DNA from: Candidatus Peregrinibacteria bacterium GW2011_GWA2_33_10
GTDB taxonomy: Bacteria; Patescibacteriota; Gracilibacteria; UBA1369; GWC2-33-13
DNA: 36,964 nt
Reading direction: 5' to 3'
Assembly: GCA_000989565.1 (NCBI GenBank)
Contig: LBOO01000008.1
Location: 13,951-50,914 of the forward strand
The notes under the pieces were generated by a model. That model made no database searches. It had not been told where the DNA came from and saw nothing but the letters and a program-made list of their open reading frames with translations. The stretch's first letter is position 1. Each line of letters opens with the position of its first letter. Both the position numbers and the translations under genes were made by a program. Below, one piece after another: positions 1,943-17,953 of the stretch.

Positions 1943-3199
1943 ATGAAAAAATTTACTTATGGAATTATAATCGGATTGCTTGTTGGATTTATTCCGGCAA
2001 CAATCGCGGCAACTAAATTTTATGATGTAATAGAAAATTCGTGGTATAGCGATGCTGTAACAAGGCTTTCTGATCTAAATATTATTCAAGGCTATGAAGA
2101 TGGATCTTTCAAACCGGATAAAAATGTAAATAGGGCAGAAATGGCTGTGATTATTGATCGACTTTTGACTTATATTCAAACAGGAAAAGCTCCCGAGAAA
2201 AAGCCGGTTTCTGAAAAGTTAATCTACTCTGATGATAGCTTGAATATTTCATTTTTATATCCAAAAACATGGGGAGAAATAACAAAAAATAAAGATTTGG
2301 ATCAAATACAGGTTAATGTAAAGGGTTTAGATAAAAATCCTGTTACTTTTCTTGTTGCTGACAATCCCAATTTCGAACCATTAGGACGCGGGGGATATTG
2401 GGGTGATTGGGGATCTCAAATTGAAAACGAGAGCGATGTTAATAATTTTTGTTTAGATAAAAGCAATTGTCAGACTTTTACCAATAATAATGGAATTAAA
2501 TTCGCTAAATATGTTAATACTGAACAAATAATGATGAATGAACCTAAAACTCATATTGATTATTATTTATTTAATAAGCACAGTCTTTATCAAGGAGTAA
2601 TAATTTCCACAATAGCTTTTTCAGAATATGATTACTCAAAATTAACCAAAGAAATTGAAGAATTGGTTTTTTCAATTGATTTTGTTAAAGATTCCGGTTA
2701 CGCCAAAAAAACTCATTTTGATGATAAATTAAAAATCAGTTTTGATTATCCGGAAACTTTTGGAGAATTAAAATCAAATACTAATTGGGAAATTTATACT
2801 CTTGCTGAAAATAGCGGGAAAAGCTTTCTAGCAGCTAATAATCCGAATATTGAATCTCCGGGACGTGGCGGATTTTGGGGAGACACAGGTAAAAATATTA
2901 AAAGTAAAAATGATGTTGTTGAATATTGCAGCGATAAAATAAATGAAACCAATGCAGGCAAAAATGAATGTCAAATATTAGTGAATAAAGCAGGTATTAC
3001 TTTGGCAAAATATTTAAATAATATTTGTTTAAGCGAGGGTTGCAGTGAACCGAAACAACATATTGAATATTATTTCTTTAATGAAAAAAGCGACTTTAGC
3101 GGATCTGTTCTTTCAACGACTGAACTTTTAAATTTATCTTTAACTCAGGCTGAAGAATATTTGGATATGCTTTCCGGCACAATCGAGTATGAAGAATAA
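1943..3199 (+). CDS. Secreted SLH-domain protein with a duplicated C-terminal domain
   Basis: A 418-aa protein with a signal peptide (1-22, ending ATIAA), one SLH repeat (about 25-76, GIIQGY-like core and NRAEMAVIIDRLL), then two homologous domains at about 92-245 and 255-415. The two copies share an opening SF.YP.T.GE motif, a GRGG.WGD block (GRGGYWGDWG and GRGGFWGDTG), a following D-V-N/E-x-C cysteine, IKFAKY/ITLAKYL, and HIDYYLFN/HIEYYFFN. The opening resembles the PsbP/DUF1795-like fold (a strand followed by YPxxW), but this is only a resemblance. The gene lies 69 bases after its paralogue, probably in the same transcript, and ends at a strong bidirectional terminator. Cell-surface location is inferred; the ligand is unknown. 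Confidence 0.85.
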   Translation: MKKFTYGIIIGLLVGFIPATIAATKFYDVIENSWYSDAVTRLSDLNIIQGYEDGSFKPDKNVNRAEMAVIIDRLLTYIQTGKAPEKKPVSEKLIYSDDSLNISFLYPKTWGEITKNKDLDQIQVNVKGLDKNPVTFLVADNPNFEPLGRGGYWGDWGSQIENESDVNNFCLDKSNCQTFTNNNGIKFAKYVNTEQIMMNEPKTHIDYYLFNKHSLYQGVIISTIAFSEYDYSKLTKEIEELVFSIDFVKDSGYAKKTHFDDKLKISFDYPETFGELKSNTNWEIYTLAENSGKSFLAANNPNIESPGRGGFWGDTGKNIKSKNDVVEYCSDKINETNAGKNECQILVNKAGITLAKYLNNICLSEGCSEPKQHIEYYFFNEKSDFSGSVLSTTELLNLSLTQAEEYLDMLSGTIEYEE

Positions 3200-12600: not shown

Positions 12601-13857
12601 TTAATTGTTTTTTAAAATTAATTCTTTAAATTTACTATGCTTAAGATTTAAAGTCGCGGTCTTCTTTTCATGAATTTTAAAAGGATAAGTATCGCTGTAT
12701 ATACACCCGCAATAATTTTGTCTATAAATATCATACTCTTTACAATAATCGACTGAACGTAAAAATCCATTTTTTTTGCGAAAAATTAGAGGAAGATATT
12801 TTAAATTATATTTTTCAGATATTTCTTCGCCTATTCGGGTTAATTTTTCTATGTCTTTTAAGGGCGACATATATAATGTGGTAGTTAGGTATTCACAATT
12901 CAATTCATTAGCCTTTTTCGCAGATTCTTGCAATCTTAATCGATAACATTGGAAGCATTTTTCACCTTTTTCCGGTGTATTTTCAAATCCTTTTATACTT
13001 GTTAAAAATTTTTTCACTTCATATGGACCTTCAATTAAATCCACTTTTTCAATTTTACATATTTTCTTAAACGCATTGAGACGTTTTAAATATTCTTTTC
13101 GTGGATGAATGTTGGGATCGTACCAATAAGCAATAATCTCATACTTATCTTTATAATCCACAATAGGCACACACGCGTCCGGACCGCAGCAAATATGCAA
13201 GAGTAATTTTGATTTTTTATTCAATACTTCTTTTACGGGTTTGAAACTTAAGCGATGAATGCCTGTTAAATCTTCTTTCATAATAATTTTTTCTCTGTGT
13301 TTATCTGTACCATAACCCGCGTTTTTTTCAAACCCATATTCGGGATATAATGAACTATAAACACACATTAATTTATCACGAAACACTTTCGCAATTATGC
13401 TGGCGGCTTGAATTTCCAATACTTTTTCATCTCCATCAATAATGAATACCGGTTTTTTAATCAAATTAGTAAAAACAAAATTATCTTTTCCATCAACCAA
13501 GACAGATTGGATATTGTTTGGATTTATTTTTAATAAAAGTTCATCTAAAGCTCTTTGCATAGCTAGTTTTGTTGCTTCGCGAATATTTTTTTCATCTATA
13601 TAAAAATTGTCCACAACTCCCATTCCGAATTTCAGTAATGGTTTCTTCTTATTAGCAAATTTGATCAATTGAGTAAAAATTATTTCTCTTTTTTTCCTTG
13701 TTAATTTTTTGGAGTCATCAAGGCTTGATAAAAATTTTCCATTTTCAATAATATTTTCTTTATCAAAACAAACCGCGCACGCAACTACGGGTCCGGCAAA
13801 ACATCCGCGGCCAACTTCGTCAATTCCTATTTTAATTTTTTCGGGATTCACAATCAC
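12601..13857 (-). CDS. rnhB-queH: RNase HII - epoxyqueuosine reductase QueH fusion protein
   Basis: A 418-aa single frame with two complete enzymes. Residues 1-210 are RNase HII: GIDEVGRG (D13, E14), SLDDSKKLT, VLVDG (D121), IDGDEKV (D142), AASIIAKVFRD, and the YPEYGF...GYGTDKH block. It removes ribonucleotides and RNA primers from DNA. Residues 215-390 are QueH (DUF208): LLLHICCGPD (C222, C223), YDPNIHP, KGEKCFQCYRLRL (C300, C303), TTTLYMSPLKD and NYCGCIYSD (C382, C384). QueH reduces epoxyqueuosine to queuosine at tRNA position 34 using an Fe-S cluster. The linker is only a few residues. No stop or frame change separates the halves. The gene heads a minus-strand operon. Both domain calls are strong; why they are joined is unknown. 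Confidence 0.93.
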   Translation of the reverse strand: MIVNPEKIKIGIDEVGRGCFAGPVVACAVCFDKENIIENGKFLSSLDDSKKLTRKKREIIFTQLIKFANKKKPLLKFGMGVVDNFYIDEKNIREATKLAMQRALDELLLKINPNNIQSVLVDGKDNFVFTNLIKKPVFIIDGDEKVLEIQAASIIAKVFRDKLMCVYSSLYPEYGFEKNAGYGTDKHREKIIMKEDLTGIHRLSFKPVKEVLNKKSKLLLHICCGPDACVPIVDYKDKYEIIAYWYDPNIHPRKEYLKRLNAFKKICKIEKVDLIEGPYEVKKFLTSIKGFENTPEKGEKCFQCYRLRLQESAKKANELNCEYLTTTLYMSPLKDIEKLTRIGEEISEKYNLKYLPLIFRKKNGFLRSVDYCKEYDIYRQNYCGCIYSDTYPFKIHEKKTATLNLKHSKFKELILKNN

Positions 13858-13954: not shown

Positions 13955-16900
13955 ATGAAAGAAAAGTTTTTGTTGCTTATTTTTAAATTGAAAATTTTTA
14001 TGAAGAAAATCTCTCATAAAAGGTATTTTACAGCAAGGGTCAGTGTTCTTATTTTAGTACTCTTGTTGAGTAGTTTTTATTTTTCTCATGACCTGAGTAA
14101 TTTTGCCGCGAAACTAAAAAGAACTAAAATTGTAAAAAGAGTGGTGCGAACGATATCCAATATGAACGATGAGAGTTTAACGGGAATCAAGCCGGTAAGT
14201 TATTTTAATTTTATTAAAGTTAATGATGAAATAAAAGCCGGTGAATGCACTGATAATTGTATGCGAATCACAAAAAAACAAAATATTCAATTTCCGGATG
14301 ATGGTACCGCTTTATTCAAAGTTAATAAAAAATCCATTACTGCTTTAGGATTATCCCATTACCCGCTTGAAGAATCTTTCTCCATTGAATTTTTATTAAA
14401 AGTAAATGACAAAAAAACTTTTATGAATAATATTGGCGAGGGGGCGGTCAAATCTGTGCCTATAATTCAAAAATCAGCTTCTTATACAAGTAAGACTTTT
14501 GAATTATTATTTTATAATTATCCGTTTAATTCCATAAATTTTAATGTATATTTAAAAGATTTTAAGGATTGTAAAAACAAACTCGGAAATACTTGTAAAA
14601 TTACGGCAAAAATACCATTAGATGGTTATAATCAGAATTCCTTTGATTATTATTTTGATAAGCAGTGGCATCATTTTATTTTAAGTTATGATCAAAGCAG
14701 CGGGCTGGCTCAAATATGTGTTGATGGTCTTTGTCCGGAAAAATTCAGTAACAAAGATAGTATAATCAAAGGCCGTTTAAATAATATTGATAGCGATTTT
14801 TTGGTTGGTTATTTGAAGAACTCTTCGGGAATAGAAGATTCGGATGTTATGTTTATGGACCAAATAGCATTTTATAATAAACCATTAAGTAAGGGCCAAA
14901 TATCAAAACATTATTTGGATGCGGTTAAAAACAAATTAGATTATAGTTTTCAAGAACTTAAGGAGATTAATAATCCGAGTTCTATAAGCGAGGAGTTAAG
15001 ATGCGAGGATTATTATCCCGGCTTTAAATCAGATAAACTCAATTGCGGACAGGAAGTGAATCATATCGCGCAGTTAAATTATTTCCCTGACGCTCGTTTT
15101 AAAGAGGATTTATTACTTGGAAAATTACATGTCTGGAGTTCATACCAATATCCAACCATTACTCCTTTTTTAGATCGAAATATCGATGATCAAGCAGTAA
15201 ATCAAACCAGAATCGATTTTTTCACAAATCTGGCAAAAAAATGGAATTATTTCTTTCCTCTCCCAACTTCGTCGTATCCGGATAATTTTGGAAATTTAAA
15301 TAATGCTGATTATCATTTTTTCAATGAGGCAAAGAGAAATCCGGATTTCAAATTAGGCATTTCATCCAATTGGGCTCAGCTTCAAAACAGTAACCGTTAT
15401 AATTGGGAATTACCGGATGAATATTATGTTCGCGACTTTAACGGTAAACTTAAAGTAGCTTTTGTTGAGGGGAAAGCCATAGGAACTCCGATTTCTCCGG
15501 GAGCACCTTTAGACTATGTTTTGGGTAACACGGCTAATGGTGTTTATGGAGACGGAAAAAAATTCAGAGATAATTTAGAAATTATTTATAAATTGATTGG
15601 TGAAAAAAGCCGTATTTCTTATTTAATTGAAAATGATGAAGTACCTCCGGCATCTGATGGGAAACCGGATGATTTTATTTATGATAAAAATGTGAGAGAT
15701 AAAATCATTGATTTTTATAAATTAAATGTTGATAAGCAAATACTTGATAATATTGATTATTCCAAAATCATTTGGGAAAATTTTTCCACAAATCCTACTT
15801 CAAGCGGAATATCTCAAGAAAATGCCCAGATATTAAAACAGGTTTATGATTTGGATTGGAATCACTTTTTATTAGTTAACAAAACAGATAATTTTAGAAA
15901 TAAATTTCTTGGAGCAATAAAAAATCATCCTGTTTTCACTTCAAATGCTGCAATAAACAATTATGAAATCGGCGAGCATAGAAAAGATCAATGGGATGTT
16001 ATTCACACCTCCAGCGACAAAGCGAATCTATCGCTGTACCCTCATGATAAATTCAATTGGAGATATTGGCCGGGATGGATTCAAGTGGCAATTAGAAGCA
16101 ATACAGCCGCTAAAAGTCAATTTAGCCAGTCAACTTATTGGCCTCTTATTTCCACAGGTTTTTATGAACACACTACAGACGTAGAAAAAGATTTTACTCC
16201 GGCTCAATGGTTAGGATGGCTTAAGTCCATGGTTGTAAGTGGAGCGGAACATTTTACATATATTACAAACCAAAATGATAATGATTATCCAATTATTAAG
16301 TGGGCATGGAAATTCGCAGTACCGGCTTATGCTCAAGCAATAGGATCGCAAGCAGGCGAGGAATTTTTTTACTGTAAAGATGGCCGATGCCCTAAATTAT
16401 TGGAAGGAGACATTGATATTCCTTATCATAATATAAAAGAATTCTCATTTTTTTATAATGATTATAGTTATTTGAATGTTGTAAAAAAATCAAGGAATGG
16501 GGATAAATTATTAATTTCCACAACAAAGCAGACCGGAATTGTAAGCCCAAACGAAACAGTTACTATTAATAATGTTGATGGAATTTCTTCTCTAACATTA
16601 CCAACACGAAGGCAAGGTTCCGTTTATATTTACAACAAGAATAATCAAAGTCTCATACAGCTAGATTCTTGGCATAAGGATACCCACCCATGGTATTGGT
16701 CAAGAAGTCCGATCATGTGGGAAGCGGAACTGCCCGCCATGATTGAAAACAGATGTAATAATATAGAAATATCCACTGATCATTCGGCAAATGATTACTC
16801 TGATTTTCGAACTTATTTAACAATTAAAAAACCGGAAAATGAATGTGAGTCTTCAATAAAATATAAATTCAATTTAGATGAAAATCAGTTATCAAAATAT

Positions 16901-17953
16901 GCTCTTTTATTAACAACCAAAAATGAAGTAAATGCTTCATTAAAAATAAAATTAAACAGTTCTTTTATTGGAAATCTGGATTTGAAAAATGAAAATAAAT
17001 TGAGTAACTTAAATGATTTGGCGAACAGATATGACATTAATACCAAAGATTTGGAAGATGTTAAAAGCAATTGGAATAATTACATCAATAATGATTTGTT
17101 GTTGCAAAACTTACGACCGGGTTTAAATGAATTGGAAATCAGCGCAAGTGGTCCTAATTTGGACGCGGATATTAATCTGGATAAGATCATATTTTTAAAA
17201 CAGAGAAAAGGAGAAACTGAAATCGCTGATTTTTATTTACGAGGATTAAATAGTAGCGGAAAAATTTATAAAACATTAATTCTTGAAAATCCAAGTAAAA
17301 ATTCCGTAGATGAAAATATCAATATTTATTTGCGAAAAAAGGGCGCTGATTGGCAGTTGGAAAATTCAAAAAGTATTAACATTAAGAGTCAAAATTTTGA
17401 AAATATTGAATTTCCGGAAGGTAACACCTTTATGGATTACAATGCTTCATCTTTAAACCCTGACGTTTCCATTAGCCAACAAATAGTTGGCAATGATCCT
17501 TATAATTATAAATTTCAGGAATATGAAATAAAAATTGATTTAGGTTCCGGAAAAAGCGCTTGTTATAAATTTGATTATTATCCTTTGGAGGATTGTACTA
17601 AAAAGAAATTTACAGCTGAATGTAATAATCAGAATAAAGATGGAGCTGAATGTGTTCTACAAGCCCAGGAGAAAAATACTAAATGTAAGCAAAATATTGA
17701 TAATAGAATATGTATTCCCGGAAAAAACGATAGTGATTGTAGCAGATTAAAAGATTTTAAATGCGAGAGAGATTATAAAAGTGATAGAAGCGCGTGTGTT
17801 TTTAATTGTTATAAAGAAAAATATACGAATTCTTTAAAAGACTATATTGAAAAAAATGATATTGAAAATTTGAAAAAAGAATGCGGCGATGATTATAATA
17901 AAAATTATAAGAATGATATTATTCAGGGACTGAGAAGAATGGAATGTAATTGA
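13955..17953 (+). CDS. Large membrane-anchored LamG / glycoside hydrolase-like surface protein with Cys-rich tail
   Basis: A 1332-aa protein. An N-terminal hydrophobic segment at about 29-45 is an anchor or uncleaved signal. Residues about 109-322 form a LamG/concanavalin-like jelly roll (SIEFLLKVNDKK..., WHHFILSYD, AQICVDG, FMDQIAFYNKPLSKGQI). Residues about 350-815 resemble a TIM-barrel glycosidase region with many aromatic residues (HVWSSYQYP, WENFSTNP, WLGWLKSMVVSGAEHFTYI). A beta-sandwich follows at about 820-900 (GDKLLISTT, then GSVYIYNKNNQ). About 925-1100 is CBM-like, and residues 1185-1332 hold many cysteines (for example CYKFDYYPLEDC). ATG at 14000 (MKKISHKRYF) is an alternative start. 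It is followed by a strong terminator and is probably transcribed alone. Enzymatic activity is inferred from layout only. Confidence 0.7.
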   Translation: MKEKFLLLIFKLKIFMKKISHKRYFTARVSVLILVLLLSSFYFSHDLSNFAAKLKRTKIVKRVVRTISNMNDESLTGIKPVSYFNFIKVNDEIKAGECTDNCMRITKKQNIQFPDDGTALFKVNKKSITALGLSHYPLEESFSIEFLLKVNDKKTFMNNIGEGAVKSVPIIQKSASYTSKTFELLFYNYPFNSINFNVYLKDFKDCKNKLGNTCKITAKIPLDGYNQNSFDYYFDKQWHHFILSYDQSSGLAQICVDGLCPEKFSNKDSIIKGRLNNIDSDFLVGYLKNSSGIEDSDVMFMDQIAFYNKPLSKGQISKHYLDAVKNKLDYSFQELKEINNPSSISEELRCEDYYPGFKSDKLNCGQEVNHIAQLNYFPDARFKEDLLLGKLHVWSSYQYPTITPFLDRNIDDQAVNQTRIDFFTNLAKKWNYFFPLPTSSYPDNFGNLNNADYHFFNEAKRNPDFKLGISSNWAQLQNSNRYNWELPDEYYVRDFNGKLKVAFVEGKAIGTPISPGAPLDYVLGNTANGVYGDGKKFRDNLEIIYKLIGEKSRISYLIENDEVPPASDGKPDDFIYDKNVRDKIIDFYKLNVDKQILDNIDYSKIIWENFSTNPTSSGISQENAQILKQVYDLDWNHFLLVNKTDNFRNKFLGAIKNHPVFTSNAAINNYEIGEHRKDQWDVIHTSSDKANLSLYPHDKFNWRYWPGWIQVAIRSNTAAKSQFSQSTYWPLISTGFYEHTTDVEKDFTPAQWLGWLKSMVVSGAEHFTYITNQNDNDYPIIKWAWKFAVPAYAQAIGSQAGEEFFYCKDGRCPKLLEGDIDIPYHNIKEFSFFYNDYSYLNVVKKSRNGDKLLISTTKQTGIVSPNETVTINNVDGISSLTLPTRRQGSVYIYNKNNQSLIQLDSWHKDTHPWYWSRSPIMWEAELPAMIENRCNNIEISTDHSANDYSDFRTYLTIKKPENECESSIKYKFNLDENQLSKYALLLTTKNEVNASLKIKLNSSFIGNLDLKNENKLSNLNDLANRYDINTKDLEDVKSNWNNYINNDLLLQNLRPGLNELEISASGPNLDADINLDKIIFLKQRKGETEIADFYLRGLNSSGKIYKTLILENPSKNSVDENINIYLRKKGADWQLENSKSINIKSQNFENIEFPEGNTFMDYNASSLNPDVSISQQIVGNDPYNYKFQEYEIKIDLGSGKSACYKFDYYPLEDCTKKKFTAECNNQNKDGAECVLQAQEKNTKCKQNIDNRICIPGKNDSDCSRLKDFKCERDYKSDRSACVFNCYKEKYTNSLKDYIEKNDIENLKKECGDDYNKNYKNDIIQGLRRMECN

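Follow-up and report, generated by a model that had tools for sequence, protein, structure and literature searches.

RNase HII is a DNA-repair nuclease that cuts at ribonucleotides in DNA, and QueH is an epoxyqueuosine reductase that converts oQ to Q in the last step of tRNA queuosine synthesis. In the solved structures, both are stand-alone proteins, as exemplified by RNase HII of E. coli (7UWE chain C) and T. maritima (3O3G) and by QueH of T. maritima (PDB 7LC5, 7LC7, and 9DEU). The nearest described case to a protein that joins the two is RNase HI-CobC of Actinomycetales (MSMEG_4305/Rv2228c/SCO2299), in which an RNase H domain likewise lies N-terminal to an unrelated cofactor-pathway enzyme throughout a lineage. 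Its domains were found to be dissociable in vivo in M. smegmatis, and the fusion was attributed by its authors to drift (PMC7466739). The protein reported here differs in that it contains RNase HII instead of RNase HI and QueH instead of CobC, while RNase HI-CobC has a longer, variable linker; neither a second origin nor a transfer between genetic codes was reported for the latter.

The DNA analyzed, referred to as the window, is a stretch of 36,964 nucleotides. A preliminary description had proposed that it encodes an in-frame fusion of RNase HII and QueH separated by a linker of a few residues. The features at the locus were as follows:

12601 to 13857, minus strand: gene for the RNase HII-QueH fusion, a single open frame of 418 aa that starts with GTG and ends with TAA
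13237 to 13830, minus strand: RNase HII domain, residues 10 to 207, with catalytic D13, E14, D122, D143, and Y182
13207 to 13236, minus strand: junction, residues 208 to 217, with a free linker of ∼4 residues
12691 to 13206, minus strand: QueH domain, residues 218 to 389, with C223 C224, C301 C304, and C383 C385
11246 to 12562, minus strand: CitMHS-type transporter gene, downstream of the fusion gene and co-oriented

The proposal was borne out. Read from 13857 to 12601, the minus strand comprised 418 codons in one frame with zero internal stops, and neither a stop nor a frameshift was present at residues 205 to 215. The RNase HII half scored 124.2 bits against a cut-off of 25.8 (Pfam RNase_HII, PF01351) and 184.6 against a cut-off of 167 (NCBIfam NF000595, the ribonuclease HII equivalog), and the QueH half scored 204.8 bits against a cut-off of 23.5 (Pfam PF02677). 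Two intact enzymes were thereby confirmed to be encoded by one bacterial gene, joined end to end. Across 35 aligned fusions that were 36 to 61% identical to the window protein, D13, E14, D122, D143, and Y182 (the conserved tyrosine of the GYGT motif) were invariant, as were the metal-centre cysteines of the QueH CC, CxxC, and CxC motifs. The preliminary description had recognized these motifs, apart from Y182, and the complete cysteine set correctly, but beyond D13 and E14 each of its residue numbers was too low by one (D121/D142 for D122/D143, and likewise for the cysteines). Since all of the catalytic residues of RNase HII were kept, there was no sign of repurposing, and both domains are predicted from their sequences to be catalytically active.

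The predicted structure agreed with this domain assignment. An AlphaFold2 model built from the 35-fusion alignment had a mean pLDDT of 85 and a pTM of 0.70, and each half superposed on solved structures: the N-terminal half on E. coli RNase HII (7uwe_C; TM(target) 0.89, 2.5 Å), with the same fold and catalytic residues, and the C-terminal half on T. maritima QueH (7lc7; TM(target) 0.88, 1.7 Å). For T. maritima QueH, TM(target) was 0.87 to 0.88 at 1.7 to 1.9 Å; over the PDB entries named above, the superposition ranged from 1.7 to 2.1 Å, with 33 to 34% identity. At the junction, whose sequence is '...SFKPVKEVLNKKS-KLLLHICCGPD', a helix at residues 206 to 212 closes the RNase HII fold and a strand at residues 216 to 222 opens QueH, with ∼4 residues separating them. 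Stand-alone relatives of the RNase HII domain end at this same place.

The fusion was not confined to the window. Among 353 genomes of the class searched, it was found at full length in 40 genomes of family f21 (40 of the 48 searched) and in two of f20. When GTDB genomes were scanned, 41 records with the fusion were obtained; most bore the title Candidatus Gracilibacteria, some were the same genomes as in the class set, and one was the complete chromosome CP042461.1. The recurrence that the preliminary description had suggested looking for was therefore evident, and chance pairing was excluded by the domain scores together with the same architecture in >40 genomes. Outside the class, a 380-genome sample of the phylum yielded no fusion at an E value of ≤1e-40 and only three stand-alone QueH proteins, and the two matches on viral contigs were both QueH only. 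The f21 and f20 fusion frames held 3 to ∼20 in-frame TGA codons, and every one translated was open under genetic code 25; in Gracilibacteria and Absconditabacteria, TGA is known to be read as glycine (PMC6851277, PMC8629427). Read-through or reassignment of a TGA stop was considered as the cause of the fusion but found no support, as the code-25 junctions had no conserved glycine and TGA serves as a stop codon in the window organism. In 27 of the 41 Gracilibacteria loci, a 232-aa protein with no Pfam match was encoded on the same strand downstream of the fusion (e.g., L068:9314-10012 and L084:9253-9951).

The authors of the preliminary description knew of no described fusion of this pair, and likewise none was found in open-access papers, none of which mentioned RNase HII in combination with either QueH or epoxyqueuosine; two Gracilibacteria genome papers mentioned neither queuosine nor RNase H. 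This lineage-wide bifunctional protein is apparently undescribed, but priority is not certain since the search covered the open-access literature.

The reading that we favor, with a probability of about 0.72, is that an active RNase HII is tethered to an active QueH, each domain acting on its own substrate. The link would keep the two enzymes coexpressed and would perhaps stabilize QueH. A first fusion would have arisen in Gracilibacteria using code 25 (TGA = glycine) and a second in family f18, and the lineage of the window would have acquired the gene by horizontal transfer, displacing the stand-alone RNase HII and the QueG that are usual in its order, with TGA glycine codons changed to GGN thereafter.

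In f18, which is also TGA rich, the fusion was found in five genomes of three genera. There, RNase HII carries an insertion and the linker is ∼30 residues, as opposed to ∼4 in the window protein. The RNase HII of the f18 fusions grouped with the family's own stand-alone RNase HII (support 100/100), and their QueH grouped with the stand-alone QueH of two f18 genomes, G120 and G121 (100/99), in which the two enzymes are encoded in separate frames. A single ancestral fusion for all lineages was rejected, with a p-AU of 8.4e-6 when the f18 and f21/f20 RNase HII sequences were forced into one clade. From these trees, the pair seems to have been joined at least twice.

Convergent origin of such an unlikely pair is unusual, and it could point against the favored reading, toward a real coupling of the two enzymes and not an incidental tethering. 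RNase HII might help QueH, for example by holding the tRNA, or queuosine status might be tied to the removal of ribonucleotides or RNA/DNA hybrids, with selection for the link. The preliminary description had likewise suggested that QueH may bind nucleic acid by means of the RNase H fold. The pair was fused in different RNase HII lineages with linkers of different length, the fusion was kept in most f21 genomes, and the junction was short in the AlphaFold2 model. The convergence gives the hypothesis of a functional link a fair test and keeps it alive as a minority reading, although a rather unlikely one: the catalytic residues of RNase HII bear no mark of a changed role, G120 and G121 keep the enzymes apart, and the relatives described below have lost QueH or joined it to something else. 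It is distinctly unlikely that the repeated fusion reflects a link in Patescibacteria between queuosine modification and the metabolism of RNA or RNA/DNA hybrids, in which the RNase H fold would present tRNA to QueH or queuosine status would gate RNase HII.

The relatives that have lost the QueH domain make its independence directly testable. QueA was present in 40/40 f21 genomes with the fusion, and all five f21 genomes with a stand-alone RNase HII (G174, G176, G177, G204, and G213) were without QueH and without a QueA match (Fisher p = 8e-7, a value that ignores kinship, with ∼4 changes of state on the tree). The stand-alone f21 RNase HII remained intact and ended at the junction ('...SYKPIKRLLEK-stop'), and no decayed QueH was found downstream of these genes. 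As QueH was lost together with QueA while RNase HII stayed, the domain behaves as a part of the queuosine pathway, and RNase HII can persist in its absence. QueH was also observed with other partners. In f20 Gracilibacteria (L103 to L109 and L161 to L168), it lies behind a NadD-like nucleotidyltransferase domain (CTP_transf_like, PF01467, ∼40 bits). This apparently undescribed protein resembles the window protein in that its QueH, which nests among the RNase HII-fused QueH domains, is likewise fused at its N terminus, but to a nucleotidyltransferase-like partner and not to RNase HII. In Bacteriovoracaceae and one CG_2015 bacterium (L110:7476-8603, L111:7503-8678, and L112:3793-5040), QueH follows an N-terminal domain of ∼170 residues for which no Pfam match was found in L111. 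The QueH part of these proteins nested inside Gracilibacteria QueH, which suggests a transfer to predatory bacteria.

The loss pattern and the alternative partners are more readily explained if independent enzymes are tethered or coexpressed than if they share a process. The domains are thus most likely independent enzymes linked for coexpression or stability, as in the favored reading. The idea in the preliminary description that the pair might be a Rosetta-stone pairing gains from the independent fusion of the same two enzymes, but it is weakened by the clean loss of QueH with QueA and by the other partners of QueH.

The queuosine genes of the window genome (G000; 1.26 Mb) were compared with those of its order. 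The fusion gene was the only match to either family in its own genome. Both Tgt (on contig C13) and QueA (G000:C4:22520-23572) were present, and QueG (PF08331) was not found, which leaves the QueH domain as the sole known oQ reductase identified there; at 86.8% completeness, however, a QueG or a second RNase H could be missing from the assembly. For de novo preQ0 synthesis, QueC gave weak partial matches that were not convincing, and the YhhQ-type transporter (PF02592) was absent from G000. Among 89 genomes of the order, the window protein was the only fusion and the only QueH, with QueH absent from 88/88 relatives sampled. In most of these relatives, RNase HII was a separate protein whose match to the fusion was limited to residues ∼5 to 225, and QueG was present in 19 of the 22 order genomes tested. 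The window copy is a candidate for replacing both the housekeeping RNase HII and the queuosine reductase. In five genomes (G003, G040, G086, G126, and G157), QueA was present and neither QueG nor QueH was detected; either the tRNA stays at epoxyqueuosine in these organisms or a third reductase exists.

Trees of RNase HII placed the window protein with the f21/f20 fusions (clade support 97/89), and the stand-alone f20 RNase HII proteins branched outside the clade of the window and f21. Holding the window RNase HII with its own order was rejected (p = 0.0015), and the QueH tree agreed, placing the window QueH with the fusion clade (98/93). The neighboring ELP3 gene, in turn, was more similar to the order than to f21, as detailed below, which also speaks for transfer of the fusion gene. 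The window branch was long, and its exact place within that clade was not fixed by the trees. This leaves some room for a fusion that was already present in the ancestor of the class and disappeared from the other members of the window's order, with no transfer; such a history is nevertheless highly unlikely given the position of the stand-alone f20 proteins, the rejected grouping with the order, and the lack of QueH in all 88 relatives.

The window organism reads TGA as a stop, since TGA ends 8 of the 29 ORFs in the window. In 29 relatives, 60% of the glycines were TGA encoded, while all 20 glycines of the window fusion were encoded by GGN, 19 of them in alignment columns where at least one relative has TGA. 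With the gene grouping with f21 and the window organism reading TGA as a stop, transfer with replacement of TGA is the most likely account, and the gene was probably transferred from a code-25 lineage, its TGA codons then being replaced. Such a probable crossing between genetic codes was beyond what the preliminary description could see. The donor may have been a code-25 organism, with later codon replacement, or a low-TGA donor that needed little; donors of the latter kind exist, as one fusion (L058) has only three TGA codons. The same fusion bears on a point against transfer, namely, that in-frame TGA codons are hard to replace in one step. The window copy is also a candidate for a gene that crossed from a lineage with TGA as glycine into one with TGA as a stop.

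The isolation of the window protein as the sole fusion and sole QueH of its order might also raise the suspicion of an artefact of assembly, binning, or gene calling. This is scarcely credible in view of the independent recurrence of the fusion in many assemblies, including a complete chromosome. The flanking genes use TGA stops, and the neighboring ELP3 gene was order-like (42 to 52% identity to the order versus 37 to 42% to f21, only a modest separation). Unlike its code-25 relatives, the window frame contained no TGA, which argues against a misplaced contig from one of those organisms.

The downstream CitMHS-type transporter gene (Pfam PF03600, 267 bits) follows the fusion gene after a gap of 38 bp, and the two possibly form an operon; the transporter showed no sign of membership in the queuosine pathway. 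Divergent from the fusion gene, a 1,332-aa protein with no Pfam match at an E value of 0.01 is encoded at 13955 to 17953. At the start of the window, three successive ORFs (202 to 702, 980 to 1873, and 1943 to 3199) contained SLH-like repeats (FxDVxxxSWYxDAVxxLxxLxIIxGYxDGSFKPDKxVNRAE) and constitute a small array of surface-layer-type proteins.
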